Positions 23,897 to 41,224 of a DNA stretch of 64,000 bases are shown here, one piece after another; positions within the stretch are counted from its first letter, which is position 1; every line of letters begins with the position of its first letter. Origin of the DNA: Peptococcaceae bacterium. Lineage in GTDB: Bacteria > Bacillota > Peptococcia > Peptococcales > Peptococcaceae. The DNA lies in contig JAFQEO010000032.1 in NCBI GenBank assembly GCA_017399005.1, positions 1 to 64,000 on the forward strand, given 5' to 3'. The notes under the pieces are model-generated. The model was not told the origin of the DNA. It ran no database searches and saw only the letters and a program-made list of their open reading frames with translations. Made by a program: the position numbers and the translations under genes.

Positions 23897-24166
23897 TTAC
23901 AGTCTGAAATCCACGGAGAGGTTGTTGTTTTCCTCCTCCGCCTCCTGAAACAGCTGCATGACCATTTCCCCGTAAGTGCCTACCTGCGCCAGCGATTCAC
24001 CGCAATTTTCAATGATAATCTGCAGCGGGTTCCCCCAGGCTGTCAGGATATCCCACAGGGCATCCAGATTTTCTCCGTAATATAACGGCAGCTGCAGCTG
24101 GCGGAAAATCTCCTTGTGCAGCGCCTCTTTATCATCCAGCATACGGCTGTCTAAACGCAATTCCAT
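23897..24166 (-). CDS. Barstar-like ribonuclease inhibitor
   Basis: Protein of 89 aa, the barstar length. It contains LYYGENLDALWDILT, the signature inhibitor helix with Y-G-x-N-L-D-A-L-W-D, and residues equivalent to barstar Asp35 and Asp39. It blocks the active site of the barnase encoded 22 bp upstream on the same strand. AAGGAG precedes the ATG. Cytoplasmic by sequence, so it protects against mis-targeted or precursor enzyme. Confidence 0.92.
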   Translation of the reverse strand: MELRLDSRMLDDKEALHKEIFRQLQLPLYYGENLDALWDILTAWGNPLQIIIENCGESLAQVGTYGEMVMQLFQEAEEENNNLSVDFRL

Positions 24167-24188: not shown

Positions 24189-24674
24189 TTAATATAACTG
24201 TTCAAAACTTTTATAGTGATCTGCTGTATAGAAAATCAGACCATCGTTCGAATACACAATGCGTTCTCCGCCCCGGTATCCACCTTCGTAGTTAACATCA
24301 CATTCGTAATACTTGCGGCCTTTCTCCTTCGGCAGAAGCCCTTCCCGGTTGCCAAAACTGTCGCCGCCGATACTCATCCCCGGTGCCACTTCATCCAGGT
24401 TGCCTTCCTGGCTGTCCCAGCCTAAATCCCGAGCCTCATTTTTTGTGATAAAGTTTTCCGGCAAGTGCCCGAACTCATAGAGATAATCGGCCACATCCTG
24501 CGGTGCGGTATAGTGCCCGTCTTCTGCGATGCCGACCGGCTGTTCCACTTCATCCCCGCTGACAACCGTTGTGCTGCTGATATCATCCGCTCCGCAGCCG
24601 GTAAAGAGCAGCCCGGCTGCCAGAACCAGCATCAGAAGCACATACAGATATTTATGTTTTTTCAGAAACTCCAT
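24189..24674 (-). CDS. Barnase-family ribonuclease, predicted lipoprotein
   Basis: Protein of 161 aa from ATG 24674 (GGAGG 7 nt upstream). Signal segment YLYVLLMLVLAAGLLFTGC fits a lipobox with Cys at 29, then an acidic linker and a full barnase domain (about 55-161): YLYEFGHLPENFITKNEA, LGWDSQEGNLDEVAPGMSIG, NREGLLP, YECDVNY, GGERIVYSNDGLI and TADHYKSF. The catalytic Glu (in YECDVNY), Arg (ERIVYS) and His (DHY) are all present, so it should be active against RNA. It is unusual that the enzyme appears anchored at the cell surface instead of freely secreted. Confidence 0.92.
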   Translation of the reverse strand: MEFLKKHKYLYVLLMLVLAAGLLFTGCGADDISSTTVVSGDEVEQPVGIAEDGHYTAPQDVADYLYEFGHLPENFITKNEARDLGWDSQEGNLDEVAPGMSIGGDSFGNREGLLPKEKGRKYYECDVNYEGGYRGGERIVYSNDGLIFYTADHYKSFEQLY

Positions 24675-24809
24675 AACAAGTCCTCCATTCTGTTTTTCTG
24701 TCATCATTATATCGCTTTGCTGCCGGTGCGTCAAACCGGTACCGCTGCCTCAGATTTATAACACATAACAGGTAATCTCTGCATATAGTAATGCGAGGAG
24801 GTGATAATC

Positions 24810-25308: not shown

Positions 25309-25359
25309 AAAAACTGCTGTACCATATTGCTGTGTGTAATATGGTCAGCAGTTTTTTTA
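25309..25359. terminator. Bidirectional terminator
   Basis: AAAAAACTGCTGTACCATATT and AATATGGTCAGCAGTTTTTT pair with one mismatch. It lies between convergent genes and reaches into the corA stop codon. Confidence 0.85.
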
Positions 25360-26301
25360 GAATAATTTCTTCCATTTCATCACGATAGCGGCAACACCAA
25401 CGGCCACCAGTGACAGCCCGCAAATTGCGGTTGCACCGGCACCACCCTGAAGCGGCAGCGGCACATTCATCCCGAAGAAACTGAAAATCATAGTCGGAAT
25501 GGTCATGATAATGGTGAGCGATGTCAGCACTTTCATAACCGTGTTCAGGTTATTGGAGATGACCGAGCTGTACGCTTCCATGGTAACATCCAGGATGCTG
25601 CTGTATACGTTGGCCATTTCGATAGCCTGTTTGTTCTCGACGATTGCATCTTCCAGCAGGTCTTCATCTTCCGGATATTTTTTAACACTTTCCAGACGCA
25701 TCAGACGCTCTAATACAAGCTCGTTTGCGCGCAGGGAGTTACTCAGGTATACCAGCGATTTATCCAGGCTCAGCAATTGGAACAGCTCCTCGTTTCTGGT
25801 GGAACGATGCAGTTCCTGCTCGATTTTCCCGCTGGAACGCTCCAACATACGCAGATACTGCAGATAGTAGGTAGCGTTGCGGTACAGCAGCTGAATAATA
25901 AATCTGGTTTTCTTGTAGGTGTAGAATTTTTTTACGCGGCCGTTGCGGAAGTCATCCAGCAATGCCAGTTCCCGCAGACAGATGGTGATAATGTATTTTT
26001 TGCCTTTATCACCCAGAATGATGGCCAGCGGCACCGTTCCGTAACCGTCGCGGCCGTCTTCCTCCTCGCGATACGGAACGTCAATGATAATCAGTGTATA
26101 ATCGTCGTCGTCGTCGACACGGGCTCTTTCATCTTCGTCCAGTGCCGAAATCATATCCTGCAGCTCAATTTCGAAATGTTCACTGACATCCCGTACTTCT
26201 TCTGCAGTAGGGCTGATCAGGCATACCCAGTTGCCGTCACAGTACTCGTTGATTTCTTCCAGCCGACCGTCTTCCAGAGACGTTTTATAAATGGCTTTCA
26301 C
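25357..26301 (-). CDS. corA: CorA-family divalent cation transporter
   Basis: Protein of 314 aa with a GTG start (GGAGGG 7 nt upstream). The N-terminal cytoplasmic alpha/beta domain is acidic and includes a DEDERARVDDDDDY run. The long stalk helix is followed by two C-terminal membrane helices with the pore signature FGMNVPLP (GMN) near 282 and a basic KWKKLF tail. It forms pentamers that carry Mg2+ or Co2+/Ni2+ into the cell. The upstream leader holds two competing hairpins (26317-26433), suggesting ligand- or ion-responsive control. Confidence 0.92.
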   Translation of the reverse strand: MKAIYKTSLEDGRLEEINEYCDGNWVCLISPTAEEVRDVSEHFEIELQDMISALDEDERARVDDDDDYTLIIIDVPYREEEDGRDGYGTVPLAIILGDKGKKYIITICLRELALLDDFRNGRVKKFYTYKKTRFIIQLLYRNATYYLQYLRMLERSSGKIEQELHRSTRNEELFQLLSLDKSLVYLSNSLRANELVLERLMRLESVKKYPEDEDLLEDAIVENKQAIEMANVYSSILDVTMEAYSSVISNNLNTVMKVLTSLTIIMTIPTMIFSFFGMNVPLPLQGGAGATAICGLSLVAVGVAAIVMKWKKLF

Positions 26302-26308
26302 AGTGTTT

Positions 26309-26433
26309 CCCTCCTGTGACTCACCATTTTTCTATCTTATCGACAGCAGCGCTATCGACACAAAAATAGTGAGCCAGATTTCATTTGTTTACAGTTTCTC
26401 GCTCGACCGGGCCCAAGATCCATCTGACTCACT
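26309..26433 (-). promoter_or_regulatory. corA leader with mutually exclusive hairpins, candidate riboswitch
   Basis: In RNA order, segment A (26433-26422, AGTGAGTCAGAU) pairs over 12 bp with segment B (26379-26368, AUCUGGCUCACU). The 3' part of B extended (26376-26362) pairs over 15 bp with segment C (26331-26317, AAAAAUGGUGAGUCA), whose end is 2 nt from the GGAGGG ribosome site. A-B and B-C cannot form together. Between B and C, TCGATAGC-GCT-GCTGTCGA forms an internal hairpin. It matches neither the M-box nor the NiCo consensus as I know them. Confidence 0.6.
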
Positions 26434-26555
26434 TCCTTTTTCACATATTTTACTTTTCGCTTTGTCAAAAACTGATTCAAAACCGGAAAAGTGCCCTAAC
26501 TATTTTATTTTATAGCACAAAATTTCAATAGTCAAGACAGGGATATCACTTCCGC

Positions 26556-27245
26556 TTATTTTCCTTTTCGACATGCCCAGGTAACACAGGCTGCACAGTT
26601 ATGTCCACCATTGCAGAAGGCATTGTGTTCCCCTTTCGGGTACTCCTGCTTCTGCCACTGATTTGACCAGCCAATGATTGCCGTGATGCTTTTCACCGGT
26701 TCCATCAGATAATTATCGCTGAGCCGGATTTCTCCATTGCACTGATTCAGAAATTTAAAAATCTCCGGTTGTGCCCCCAGCGCCCAGTCACCGTATCCCG
26801 GGCTGTAACGCAGAGTGGCATACATACCTTTCGGCACTGCCTGCTGCTGCAGATACTGACAGAATGCTTCTGCAAACAGTTCAGCACCATGAGAACCGAG
26901 ATAATCGGCCACTGTACTTCGATATAACTGCCCGTCCTGTGCAGATATCCGTGCTTCATCAGGAAGCCCCGGGCCGATTGTCAGTGCCATTATGGTTGCA
27001 CGGCTGCATTGTGCCAGGCCCTTGCAGACATAACAACTGGCAATGGATAAGTCTCCATTGCCTAGTGTTAATACTTCTCCATTATTACTGCTGATTGCCT
27101 CTTCCCGCCAGAATACCGAAGGTTTCACCTTGCGCCACAGCGCTTTGAGAAGCTGCGGATCATCAGGACAATCCTTGCGGGTCTGGATAAACTGCTGCAC
27201 ATCAAACGGGATAAAAAAATTCTGCATATGATGCACTGCACTCAT
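26556..27245 (-). CDS. Free-standing methionine synthase activation domain
   Basis: Protein of 229 aa. The motif RYSPGYGDWALGAQ is the S-adenosylmethionine-binding R-x-S-P-G-Y of the MetH activation domain, and the C-terminal CNGGHNCAACVTWACR adds a cysteine cluster typical of the stand-alone clostridial form. It reductively remethylates cobalamin that has oxidised to Cob(II). The metH gene of this operon lacks that domain, so the two proteins should work in trans. ATG directly follows the metF stop. Confidence 0.9.
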   Translation of the reverse strand: MSAVHHMQNFFIPFDVQQFIQTRKDCPDDPQLLKALWRKVKPSVFWREEAISSNNGEVLTLGNGDLSIASCYVCKGLAQCSRATIMALTIGPGLPDEARISAQDGQLYRSTVADYLGSHGAELFAEAFCQYLQQQAVPKGMYATLRYSPGYGDWALGAQPEIFKFLNQCNGEIRLSDNYLMEPVKSITAIIGWSNQWQKQEYPKGEHNAFCNGGHNCAACVTWACRKGK

Positions 27246-28097
27246 TTACAGCACCTCGATAATCCGTTCCGCCAGACTGTACTGACGCATCGGGAAAATA
27301 TGAATCCCGGCAGCAACCGGTTTCAGCTGCTGTACCAGATTCTGAATATAGCGCATACCGCCTTCTGCGCCCTCTTTTTCTAAAATGGCAATCATTTCAT
27401 CCGGCACATGCACCCCTGGAACATTGGCATTCATATACTGCGCCTGTTTCACACTCTTCAGCGGCATAATGCCGTAAATAAACGGCACATCGGTATTTAC
27501 AGCTGTGGCAAAGCGCTCCACCTGCTCCAGACTGTATACCGGCTGTGTCTGGAAAAACTGCACACCGTGGGCAATTTTATCATGCACCCGTTCTGCTTCA
27601 TGGGCAATATCCGCCATCGCCGGGTTAGCTACGGCACCAATAAAGAAATTCGTGCCGTTGTCCAGTTCACGACCGTAATAATCCTGCCCCAGATTCAGAC
27701 TTGCCGCCATCTGCGCCAGCCCTTTGGAATCCACATCAAATACACCGGAGGCATCGGGATGGTCACCCAGTTCCGGCTGGTCGCCGGTTAAGGTCAGAAT
27801 ATTGCGTACACCCATGGCATGGGCACCCAGAAGCTCTGCCTGCAACCCCATCAGGTTGCGGTCACGACAGGTGAGATGAAAAATCGTTTCCAGATGCAGC
27901 TGAGCCTGTACCAGATGCGCCAGAGCAATGGGGCTCATGCGCAGTTTTGCTGTCGGGCTGTCTGCAATATTCACCGCGGTCAGTTTTGCAGCTAAATCGT
28001 GAATAGCCAGAAATACCGGCCACGGGTCAGCACCGCGCGGCGGGTCAACTTCCATGGTAACTACAAACTCTTTGCGTTCTAACTGCTCTCTTAACAC
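27246..28097 (-). CDS. metF: Methylenetetrahydrofolate reductase
   Basis: Protein of 283 aa, TIM-barrel MTHFR family. ME-V-DPPRG at residues 15-22 holds the catalytic Glu region, followed by NILTLTGDQPELGD (folate/FAD contact region), and FFQTQPVYSLEQ with GIMPLKS near the C-terminus. It supplies 5-methyl-THF to MetH. GTG start overlaps the end of metH, so translation is coupled. It belongs to the short MTHFR form common in anaerobes. Confidence 0.92.
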   Translation of the reverse strand: MLREQLERKEFVVTMEVDPPRGADPWPVFLAIHDLAAKLTAVNIADSPTAKLRMSPIALAHLVQAQLHLETIFHLTCRDRNLMGLQAELLGAHAMGVRNILTLTGDQPELGDHPDASGVFDVDSKGLAQMAASLNLGQDYYGRELDNGTNFFIGAVANPAMADIAHEAERVHDKIAHGVQFFQTQPVYSLEQVERFATAVNTDVPFIYGIMPLKSVKQAQYMNANVPGVHVPDEMIAILEKEGAEGGMRYIQNLVQQLKPVAAGIHIFPMRQYSLAERIIEVL

Positions 28098-30481
28098 AGG
28101 GGGTCACCCTCTTTCAGAAAATCATCCATCAGTTTTACGGTCTGCACTGCATCACGGCCAAAACCGTCTGCACCAGCCTCTTCTGCAAATTCCTCTGTGA
28201 TAACAGCACCGCCGATAATCACTTTTGTATTCGGCGATTTTTCACGAATCTGCGCAATCACACCCGGAATCTCCTGCATGGTAGTAGTCATCAGTGCACT
28301 TAACCCTAAAAATTCTGCATTATATTCCAGTACCGCATCCACAAATGTTTCTGCCGGTACATTCTTTCCTAAATCGATAACTCGATAGCCGTGGTTTTTC
28401 ACCATTACAGCCACCATATTTTTTCCAATATCATGAATGTCGCCTTTTACAGTGCCGATTACCAGGGTTCCTTTCTGGAATCCCTCTCCGCTCTGTAAAT
28501 AGCCTTCTAGCAGGTCAAATGCCTGCTGGGATACTTCTGCACTACGCATCAGCTGTGGCAGGAAAAATACGCCTTTCTCGTACTTCTCGCCCACTTCATT
28601 TAAGCCCTTAATCAGCCCGTCGTTAATAATCGTCATGGCTTCTATGCCCTGATCCAGCAGAGCCTGTACCACTTTCGCGATACCGGAGCTTCCTTTCACC
28701 ACATAGCGGGTAACCAGCTCCAGACTCGGTGTTTCATCGGCAGTCACCGGAGCCGATACCGCCTGTTCGCTGTTCAGCATGAGATAATTCTCTGCATTTT
28801 CATCACGCCCGGCCAGCAGTGCCGCACTCTGCCATGCATTTTTCATCATCTCATCCAGCGGATTGATGATGGATAAATCCAGCCCTTTGCCAATCGCCAT
28901 TGCTAAAAATGCACTGTTGATTTTCGGCCGGTTCGGCAGACCGTGGGATACATTGCTGACACCCAGCAGCAGATTTACGCCGGGCAGTTCCTGACGAATC
29001 AGCTCCATAGTACGCAGCGTTTCCTTCGGCCCGTTGATATCGGTACCAACAGTAAGTACCAGGCTATCGATATAAATATCCTGTCGTCTGATGCCGTACT
29101 GCTCACAGGCTTCCACAATCCGTTTCGCAATTTCCAGACGTCCTTCCGCTTTTGCAGGGATGCCGTTTTCGTCCAGTGTGAGCCCAACCACAGCGGCACC
29201 GTAACGTTTTGCCAGCGGCAGAATATTTTCCAGACTTGCCTGTTCGCCGTTTACCGAGTTAATCAGAGCCTTGCCCTGATACTGTTTCAGAGCCCGTTCC
29301 AGTACATCCGGCTTGGTGGAATCCAGACACAGCGGAATACTGATGCTCTGCTGCAGCAGTGTTAATACATCCGCCATCACCTGAACTTCATCAATGCCGT
29401 GAGTACCCACATTGACATCCAGAATATGTGCCCCTGCCTCTTCCTGCAGTTCAGCCTCTTTTTCAATCATAGCAAGGTCGCCGTCACGCAGTCCCTGTGC
29501 CAGTTTTTTACGGGCAGTCGGGTTAATGCGTTCCCCAATCATTTTCGGCAGCGTATTGCCGCCGATTTCCACAATATGTTCCCGGCAGGATAACCGACCC
29601 AGCGGTTCCACACTGCGCGGCTGCACATCAAAATCCTGCACTGCGGCCTTCAAACCGGCGATATGCTGCGGTGTGGTGCCGCAGCACCCGCCCAGAAATG
29701 CCACCTGATACGGCAGGAATTTTTTCATTTCATCTGCAAACTGTTCTACACCCAGCGGATACTGTACTTTGCCGTCCACCATCAAAGGCAGACCGGCATT
29801 TGGCTGCGCAACCAGAGGCAGTTCAGTATAGCGGGATAACTCCTCCACAACCTGCTGCAGTTCATCAGGGCCGCCAGAGCAGTTGCACCCGATTACCGAT
29901 GCACCCATAGCCTCCAGAGTTACCGCTGCCACCGCAGGGCTCACACCGGTCAGTGTACGGCCATTGGTGTAGGTCATGCTACAGATTACCGGAATTTGTT
30001 CGTTCCCGGCATCACGGCAGGCCAGCAGTGCCGCCCGCATTTCCCCCAGGTCGCTGAAGGTTTCCAGCAGAAAGTAGTCCGGCCGAGCAGAAGCAATGGC
30101 CTCTGCCTGTTCCAGATAAATGGCATACATTTCATCAAAGGAGGTGTCGCCCACCGGCGATACAAAGTGCCCGGTCGGCCCCAGTGATGCGGCAACCATC
30201 CCGTGCCCTGCCTTCTGACAGGCACCGCGGGCAATTTCCACCGCCCGGCGGTTGATTTCCGCAACACGGTCCTCCAGTTTGTATTCCTGTAATTTTAAAC
30301 GGCTTCCGCCGAATGTATTGGTGATAACAATGTCGGCACCGGCCCGCAGATAATCCAGATGCACACTTTCCACCACATCCGGCATTGTCAGGTTCAGTTC
30401 TTCCGGGCTCTGCCCAGGAGTCAGCCCCCGCTGCTGCAGCATAGTGCCCATGGCACCGTCAAAAATTAAAATCTGACCCAT
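28091..30481 (-). CDS. metH: Cobalamin-dependent methionine synthase, core domains
   Basis: Protein of 796 aa, about two thirds of full MetH. Domains in order: homocysteine S-methyltransferase with zinc ligands (CNCSGG near 200 and GGCCGTTP near 265), pterin-binding domain (ERINPTARKK, DVNVGTHG), helical cap, and B12-binding domain with GDIHDIGKN (the DxHxxG cobalamin motif). The C-terminal activation domain is missing and is supplied by the separate gene at 26556. It transfers methyl from methyl-THF to homocysteine in the cytoplasm. Confidence 0.95.
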   Translation of the reverse strand: MGQILIFDGAMGTMLQQRGLTPGQSPEELNLTMPDVVESVHLDYLRAGADIVITNTFGGSRLKLQEYKLEDRVAEINRRAVEIARGACQKAGHGMVAASLGPTGHFVSPVGDTSFDEMYAIYLEQAEAIASARPDYFLLETFSDLGEMRAALLACRDAGNEQIPVICSMTYTNGRTLTGVSPAVAAVTLEAMGASVIGCNCSGGPDELQQVVEELSRYTELPLVAQPNAGLPLMVDGKVQYPLGVEQFADEMKKFLPYQVAFLGGCCGTTPQHIAGLKAAVQDFDVQPRSVEPLGRLSCREHIVEIGGNTLPKMIGERINPTARKKLAQGLRDGDLAMIEKEAELQEEAGAHILDVNVGTHGIDEVQVMADVLTLLQQSISIPLCLDSTKPDVLERALKQYQGKALINSVNGEQASLENILPLAKRYGAAVVGLTLDENGIPAKAEGRLEIAKRIVEACEQYGIRRQDIYIDSLVLTVGTDINGPKETLRTMELIRQELPGVNLLLGVSNVSHGLPNRPKINSAFLAMAIGKGLDLSIINPLDEMMKNAWQSAALLAGRDENAENYLMLNSEQAVSAPVTADETPSLELVTRYVVKGSSGIAKVVQALLDQGIEAMTIINDGLIKGLNEVGEKYEKGVFFLPQLMRSAEVSQQAFDLLEGYLQSGEGFQKGTLVIGTVKGDIHDIGKNMVAVMVKNHGYRVIDLGKNVPAETFVDAVLEYNAEFLGLSALMTTTMQEIPGVIAQIREKSPNTKVIIGGAVITEEFAEEAGADGFGRDAVQTVKLMDDFLKEGDPLC

Positions 30482-32787: not shown

Positions 32788-32950
32788 AGAAAAAGCCATT
32801 TTCTTTTGGGTAGAAAATGGCTTTTGATTACACCTAGATTACACTCCATTATCTACCAGACCTTGGTCTGCAGGATTTAGCACATTTCCAGTCTTGCTGG
32901 CTGTTGCCGGGCTTCACAGGGCCAGTCCCTCCGCCACTCTTGATAATAAA
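32788..32950 (-). promoter_or_regulatory. SAM-I (S-box) riboswitch with terminator
   Basis: On the minus strand the leader contains TTATCAAGAGTGGCGGAGGG, ACTGGCCCTGTGAAGCC and CGGCAAC, the SAM-I core, with P1 closing by GATAAT. The expression platform ends in the stem AAAAGCCATTTTC / GAAAATGGCTTTT (32791-32825) and T run. High SAM should terminate transcription of metY-metA-metH-metF. Confidence 0.95.
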
Positions 32951-40769: not shown

Positions 40770-40952
40770 TAAAGAGCTGATAATTTTATCAGCTCTCCGA
40801 AGAGTAGAACATCGCACCTGACAGATTCCTCTGCCACTCGATTTTCCTATGCCCTGTCCTTTTGCCTGAGAGATTGGCAGATTTCTGTTTGCGCGGACAC
40901 AAACCTGCTGTACACCTTCGGCGCTCTTTAAAAGATAGAGACTCTCCAGAGA
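40770..40952 (-). promoter_or_regulatory. Glycine riboswitch with terminator
   Basis: The minus-strand leader has GCGCCGAAGGTGTA, AATCTCTCAGGCAAAAGGAC and AGGGCA, the gcvT-type glycine aptamer. Only one clear aptamer is seen; the following GAGTGGCAGAGGAATCTGTC may be a ghost aptamer. The platform is GAGAGCTGATAA-type hairpin AGAGCTGATAA / TTATCAGCTCT (40772-40796) with T run. Confidence 0.92.
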
Positions 40953-41224
40953 TAGTTGTTTTTAAAACTCCTTGATGAATTTCCAACAACGATTTATACT
41001 TTACCACCATCGATTATTGAAAGCAACCCTGTTTTTGTGAGCCATCGCTCAAACTTTATGGTGCCGAAGCACAGTGTTGTCATTCAGGCAAACACATTGC
41101 GTCTTTATATCGTGGATTTTTTTCTGTTTATTTGTCTGTTTGCCTTATTGCAAAAACAAATGTCCATAAAACAGATTCTATTATGTGCATCCCCGCATCC
41201 CGCCTGTTTTTCAGCTGCACATAG

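Follow-up and report, generated by a model that had tools for sequence, protein, structure and literature searches.

The corA leader of a Peptococcaceae bacterium is probably a ribosome-operated translational attenuator with an M-[D/E]-x-x-P leader peptide as sensor

What does a transporter gene sense through a leader that can fold into alternative helices, and which part of the leader does the sensing? The question is raised by the corA gene of a Peptococcaceae bacterium, found in the window (the whole stretch of 64,000 nucleotides that was analysed here, contig JAFQEO010000032.1). A preliminary description had read the leader as a candidate riboswitch of unknown class, in which two mutually exclusive helices govern access to the corA ribosome site and the about 42 nt enclosed by the first helix bind an ion or a related ligand. 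We consider it likely, based on modelled RNA folds and the comparison of leaders, that this leader is instead a ribosome-operated translational attenuator whose sensor would be a leader peptide starting with M-[D/E]-x-x-P, and not a ligand-binding aptamer.

All features of the locus are located on the reverse strand. The corA gene (25357..26301) starts with a GTG codon at 26301 and encodes 314 residues including the GMN motif (PF01544, E = 7e-56). A probable promoter, TTGACT-17 nt-TAAAAT, is found at 26507..26535, and similar sequence is present upstream in the congeners. The leader contains a short open reading frame (uORF, 26352..26423) of 23 codons plus stop, MDLGPGRARNCKQMKSGSLFLCR, which is preceded by the Shine-Dalgarno sequence AAGGAAG (26432..26438) with the core AAGGA 10 nt before the ATG. 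Four segments of the leader can pair with each other. Segment A (AGTGAGTCAGAT, 26422..26433) overlaps the ribosome site and the start codon of the uORF, and the uORF Shine-Dalgarno sequence overlaps it in part. Segment B (ATCTGGCTCACTATTTTT, 26362..26379) covers the uORF codons 15-21 and can pair either with A, through the part ATCTGGCTCACT (26368-26379), or with C. According to the predicted fold and the alignment, a linker hairpin (TGTCGATAGCGCTGCTGTCGATA, 26338..26360) separates B from segment C (AAAAATGGTGAGTCA, 26317..26331), which ends 1-2 nt before the corA Shine-Dalgarno sequence AGGAGGG (26309..26315) and has B or D as its partner. Segment D (CTGTGAAAGCCATT, 26290..26303) comprises the GTG and the first codons of corA. 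The helices described earlier, A:B with 12 bp including one G-U pair and B:C with 15 bp including two, were confirmed on the window sequence together with their mutual exclusivity and the closeness of C to the ribosome site. The preliminary description did not include segment D, which pairs with C in a third helix, nor the ORF in the A:B loop; the stretch that it took for the sensor in fact represents codons 1-14 of this ORF.

Just upstream of the corA promoter, at 26556-30481 on the same strand, the window encodes a split methionine synthase set, in which a 796-residue MetH core and a stand-alone MTHFR are accompanied by a 229-residue ORF that matches the B12-dependent activation domain below the threshold. 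At 23897-24166 and 24189-24734 (reverse strand) a Barnase-type ribonuclease (PF00545) with a lipoprotein-like signal is followed by an ORF of 89 residues, which by eye looks like a barstar inhibitor, and the pair would then be a secreted nuclease and its immunity protein.

The leader is present in all eight genomes of the genus that were examined by DNA similarity, and its predicted fold is better than those of all 200 dinucleotide shuffles (z -4.5). The core of A:B, comprising ten pairs, is kept in all eight congeners with the outermost pair missing in two genomes. The core of B:C is also kept in all of them with a single A-C mismatch in one leader (L004). The C:D pairs and the corA Shine-Dalgarno sequence are kept in all eight. 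The linker between B and C ranges from about 20 to more than 80 nt among the congeners and is strongly variable in sequence as well. A sister genus (L033), whose CorA is 75% identical, has equivalent A:B and B:C helices that are built from different sequence, as read from its leader. Within the genus all helix changes are one-sided and G-U-compatible.

If the leader were a true metabolite or ion riboswitch, the A:B loop would be its aptamer and the ORF would be incidental. Within the genus such a reading finds some footing in a stretch of 15 nt (ATGGATCTTGGGCCC) that, like much of the remaining loop, is near-invariant in the eight congeners, and in codons 1-5, which do not show any synonymous change. 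Outside the genus, however, the only loop nucleotides that are kept are those spelling M-[D/E]-x-x-P, and across genera and families the nucleotides change, including synonymous changes, while the start of the peptide stays. A known riboswitch class was rejected because the Rfam covariance models did not match the leader at either gathering or permissive thresholds, in agreement with the earlier statement that the leader has no M-box or NiCo signatures. The sub-threshold matches in the leader were to unrelated RNAs (microRNAs, a snoRNA, and fstAT) with E-values above 1. A new class was rejected as well: a covariance model built from segment A:B and searched against 46 genomes of the class matched only the genus and, weakly, one further site, which is located just before corA of the sister genus. 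A DNA pattern search allowing two mismatches in 399 genomes of the phylum did not reveal any convincing relative outside the genus. Altogether a riboswitch is largely refuted, and we give it a very small probability. Two riboswitches of known classes are present elsewhere on the reverse strand of the window, a SAM (S-box) riboswitch at 32846-32949 and a glycine riboswitch at 40843-40959, both above the Rfam gathering scores.

The uORF reads ATG GAT CTT GGG CCC GGT CGA GCG AGA AAC TGT AAA CAA ATG AAA TCT GGC TCA CTA TTT TTG TGT CGA TAG. Its first five codons are invariant in the genus and all eight congeners share a frame starting with MDLGP[G/S]R, which in one genome (G006) is shifted beyond codon 13 by a deletion of one nucleotide. 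Because codons 1-5 are unchanged and replacements appear later, the codon evidence within the genus is neutral by itself, and the claim that the uORF is coding is therefore based on other genera. In the sister genus the peptide before corA starts with MDPVPCKRN, and corA leaders in other families of the class encode MDSGPEHSC, MDPGPDRTT, and MESVPIRTF. A further corA scan, which returned 80 loci mainly from Clostridia, added MDVGPSYRR (Cellulosilyticum), MESGPYPG (Blautia), MEGGPSPR (Lactonifactor), MDCDPDSS (Ruminiclostridium), MDGAPCYK (Thermincola), and many more alike. Across the leaders, Pro5 is encoded by CCT, CCC, CCG, and CCA, and the acidic residue 2 by GAT, GAC, GAA, and GAG. As all synonymous codons are used, selection acts on the amino acids and not on the bases. 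A second acidic residue at position 4 is found in a minority (Asp4 in 5/48 corA and 5/33 mgtE leaders).

Short ORFs and inverted repeats are each frequent in leaders, and a chance ORF combined with chance pairing could be suspected at any single locus; no result of the tools supports it here. A Shine-Dalgarno-preceded M[DE]..P uORF precedes 41 of 90 corA genes compared to a mean of 0.77 in dinucleotide shuffles, and the stricter form M[DE].[GDVS]P is found 39 times compared to 0.13; Asp/Glu2 and Pro5 are fixed by the definition of the search but the enrichment is far above chance. Moreover, 41 of the 52 Shine-Dalgarno-preceded short ORFs before corA that start with M[D/E] have the proline exactly at position 5, while the motif is absent from all 60 control genes (0/60). 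These counts refute coincidence, which retains a negligible probability. What is conserved is thus a translatable, Shine-Dalgarno-preceded short ORF, and it is conserved as a peptide. Three corA leaders (L104, L089, and L108) have near-motif uORFs without Pro5, starting with MESDADSS, MDSGSCYH, and MDSGSSYH, which could possibly serve as natural variants for probing the role of this proline.

Which signal could such a peptide report? CorA and MgtE belong to unrelated families of Mg2+ channels, and M-[D/E]-x-x-P leaders precede the genes of both. In the class, 18 of 30 mgtE genes have such a uORF (e.g. MDSYPPSR and MEGNPRSS). Samples of the entire phylum gave 15/69 for mgtE and 8/30 for corA. 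It speaks against the attenuator reading that about half of the corA genes do not have the uORF. In the same phylum the motif was not found before TrkH (K+) genes (0/30), nor before P-type ATPases (0/12 MgtA and 0/18 others). In the genome of the window itself, a pattern search located a Shine-Dalgarno-preceded copy of the Gly4 form before corA and nowhere else. Because similar leaders precede corA and the unrelated mgtE, the Mg2+ sensor is probably the ribosome that translates the uORF. The ion-related signal proposed earlier is considered likely. The M-box, which is an OFF switch at high Mg2+, is located directly 5' of the uORF in one mgtE locus and in nine of the 39 corA loci with a uORF that were checked. 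Among corA loci lacking the uORF it was found in 1/20, at a greater distance.

Another signal (another ion, polyamines, the supply of amino acids or tRNAs, or an antibiotic) could in principle be sensed by stalling at the same N-terminal motif. CorA proteins are able to carry Co2+ or Ni2+, and leader peptides are known to sense many signals. This reading does not account well for a motif that precedes two unrelated Mg2+ channel families but not the tested controls and that follows M-box Mg2+ riboswitches, and the uORF does not have a run of a single amino acid as would suit classical attenuation. We regard a signal other than Mg2+ as improbable.

Two groups of leaders differ in detail. In a subgroup of mgtE leaders of the class (L130-L141 and L148) the peptide has the near-invariant start MDSYPP[S/C/G] with a double proline and may stall ribosomes by a somewhat different route. 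In Thermincola (L128) a hairpin resembling an intrinsic terminator (AAAACTCCCTTAA...AGGGGAGTTTTTTT) is located between the uORF stop and corA, following an M-box and the uORF, and the uORF may therefore act on transcription there.

How would translation of the uORF be transmitted to corA? All eight congeners are predicted to adopt A:B and C:D as their ground state, and the corA start codon is then paired at a probability near 1. In the C:D hairpin the start codon is part of the stem and most of the Shine-Dalgarno sequence is in the loop. In the window, forcing the B:C helix reduces the modelled cost of opening the corA ribosome-binding site from 11.1 to 4.2 kcal/mol. Because C:D pairs the corA start codon, the state with A:B and C:D is regarded as closed and the state with B:C as open. 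According to the models B:C is thus probably the ON state and acts as an anti-sequestor. This is the reverse of the earlier proposal, in which A:B would free the ribosome site and B:C would crowd it.

In the models, the closed ribosome site and its response to a block at the uORF start extend to other leaders. For 46 corA leaders, opening of the ribosome-binding site costs 9.6 kcal/mol compared to 6.9 in shuffles, and blocking the uORF start, which mimics a ribosome at this position, lowers the cost by 1.97 kcal/mol on average compared to about -0.1 in leaders with a shuffled middle part. The 29 mgtE leaders, which form an independent set, gave 9.5 compared to 7.3 kcal/mol for opening and a decrease of 2.27 compared to about -0.25 upon blocking. 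The idea that exclusive helices govern access to the corA ribosome site is supported by these computations, in which the exclusive RNA states depend on the position of the ribosome, although the switch is incomplete in the window itself: with the uORF start blocked C:D is still the minimum (-44.4 compared to -40.6 for B:C). One congener (L006) behaves like the window and retains C:D, while six of the eight congeners switch to B:C. Since the model of the window keeps C:D after the block, co-transcriptional folding is assumed, in which B would meet C before D is available. For two Blautia leaders (L103 and L109) the folds predict direct pairing between the region of the uORF start (AAUUAUGG) and that of the corA start (CCAUGAUU), which would represent a simpler coupling of both starts.

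The same uORF could also be coupled to corA differently, either by translational coupling or re-initiation, in which a ribosome that completes the peptide would open the closed leader and corA would increase with translation of the uORF, or through B:C as the OFF state, as proposed earlier. B:C indeed finishes only 1-2 nt from the corA Shine-Dalgarno sequence, and some leaders have about 20 nt between the uORF stop and the start of the transporter gene. In those leaders (L038, L039, L041, L044, L102, and L126) a ribosome modelled at the stop lowers the opening cost. Overall, a ribosome at the uORF stop has a smaller effect than one at the start, with 24 leaders lower and 12 higher (p = 0.04), and this result was not used because, where the mask overlaps the ribosome-binding site, as it does in just the leaders named, part of the effect is a consequence of the mask itself. 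In contrast, the effect at the uORF start is systematic against shuffles and in two gene families. An upstream M-box, being OFF at high Mg2+, also agrees with the uORF only if abortion of translation at low Mg2+ favours expression. Such other couplings therefore seem unlikely to us, though less so than a signal other than Mg2+.

In the preferred reading, the attenuator with the M-[D/E]-x-x-P peptide as sensor, the four RNA segments would form two states, and the corA ribosome site would be shut by A:B together with C:D (OFF) and freed by the anti-sequestor B:C (ON). When Mg2+ is scarce, ribosomes would pause or drop off within the first uORF codons, at the acidic residue 2 and Pro5. Repeated early occupancy by ribosomes would mask A without reaching B, B would pair with C during transcription, and corA would be translated. 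With enough Mg2+ the peptide would be completed, the ribosomes would leave, and A:B and C:D would form and turn corA off. The computations show the uORF and its conservation as a peptide, its association with Mg2+ channel genes and with M-boxes, and the two RNA states with their direction, whereas we infer that the signal is Mg2+ and that ribosomes pause or drop off early; the low-Mg2+ drop-off model is proposed because of the layout of mgtQ, the drop-off at MgtL, and the inverse relation known from corL, and the M-box in series with the uORF fits a system that is turned on at low Mg2+.

The closest parallel is the experimentally dissected mgtQ, a uORF between mgtC and mgtB of Salmonella. Its translation is impeded by the acidic residues 2 and 5, and as a result the ribosome site of mgtB is opened (PMC8092293). 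Like the leaders described here, mgtQ is a short ORF with an acidic residue and a proline within the first five codons (Asp2, Pro4, and Glu5) before a Mg2+ transporter gene and exerts translational control through four segments, the ribosome-binding site being closed by 1:2 and 3:4 and opened by 2:3, with the early acidic residues favouring the open state (PMC8092293). In contrast, mgtQ has eight codons, is located within an operon before the gene of the P-type ATPase MgtB, and is found in Salmonella and some other bacteria with mgtC and mgtB, while the Bacillota uORFs have about 10-45 codons and precede the channel genes corA and mgtE. MgtL, the leader peptide of mgtA in E. coli and Salmonella, contains an EPDP motif, and in E. 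coli ribosomes drop off from it at low Mg2+ (PMC11282234). Its start M-E-P-D-P fits M-[D/E]-x-x-P, the Bacillota motif resembles this ribosome-destabilising start, and the drop-off turns on the Mg2+ importer gene mgtA. The output at mgtA is Rho-dependent termination, whereas it looks translational in the modelled corA and mgtE leaders. As the peptides are short, convergence is as likely as common descent with mgtL and mgtQ.

Translation of corL is inversely related to the expression of corA (PMC11552253). The corL leader shares with ours a proline-bearing uORF before corA and two exclusive RNA states, but it is Rho-dependent, starts with UUG in E. coli, and has few acidic residues and prolines, and the corA motif of gamma-proteobacteria has been reported only in Gammaproteobacteria (PMC6429828). 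The M-box (ykoK, RF00380) also precedes Mg2+ transporter genes and in several lineages immediately precedes the uORF; it is an RNA aptamer and not a peptide sensor, and is absent from the leader in the window. In Mycobacterium an M-box is followed by the conserved uORF2/Rv1805A with a universally conserved N-terminal proline (PMC12810186). This uORF differs by having the proline at position 7, by being specific to mycobacteria, by being the regulated gene itself, and by its location upstream of PE/PPE genes. Thus, the kind of leader is already known from the enterobacterial Mg2+ leader peptides, the mycobacterial uORF behind an M-box, and the corA motif of gamma-proteobacteria, while the Bacillota family apparently is large and unannotated. 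A report on leaders of this sort before corA or mgtE in Bacillota was not found in the literature outside subscription papers.

More generally, the locus teaches that conservation and alternative helices can make a leader look like a riboswitch although its sensor is an ORF. Mg2+ control in Bacillota is usually ascribed to the M-box riboswitch. In Clostridia from the gut and the environment, the leaders before corA and mgtE point to a second, peptide-based layer, which is seemingly unannotated. On balance we lean, by a little, towards the view that M-[D/E]-x-x-P peptides constitute a phylum-wide Mg2+ sensor of the Bacillota, which acts through the ribosome, serves at least two unrelated channel families, and is often placed behind an M-box such that one leader reads Mg2+ twice. 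If this is true, the tandem leaders would read Mg2+ first by an RNA aptamer and then by the ribosome, and these natural arrangements pose the question why one ion should be measured twice. Asp/Glu2 and Pro5 together are an easily tested motif for studying the stabilisation of ribosomes by Mg2+ while the nascent chain is still short. The Bacillota leaders would then parallel the enterobacterial MgtL/mgtQ/CorL system, and sensing of Mg2+ through early failure of the ribosome would not be an enterobacterial peculiarity.
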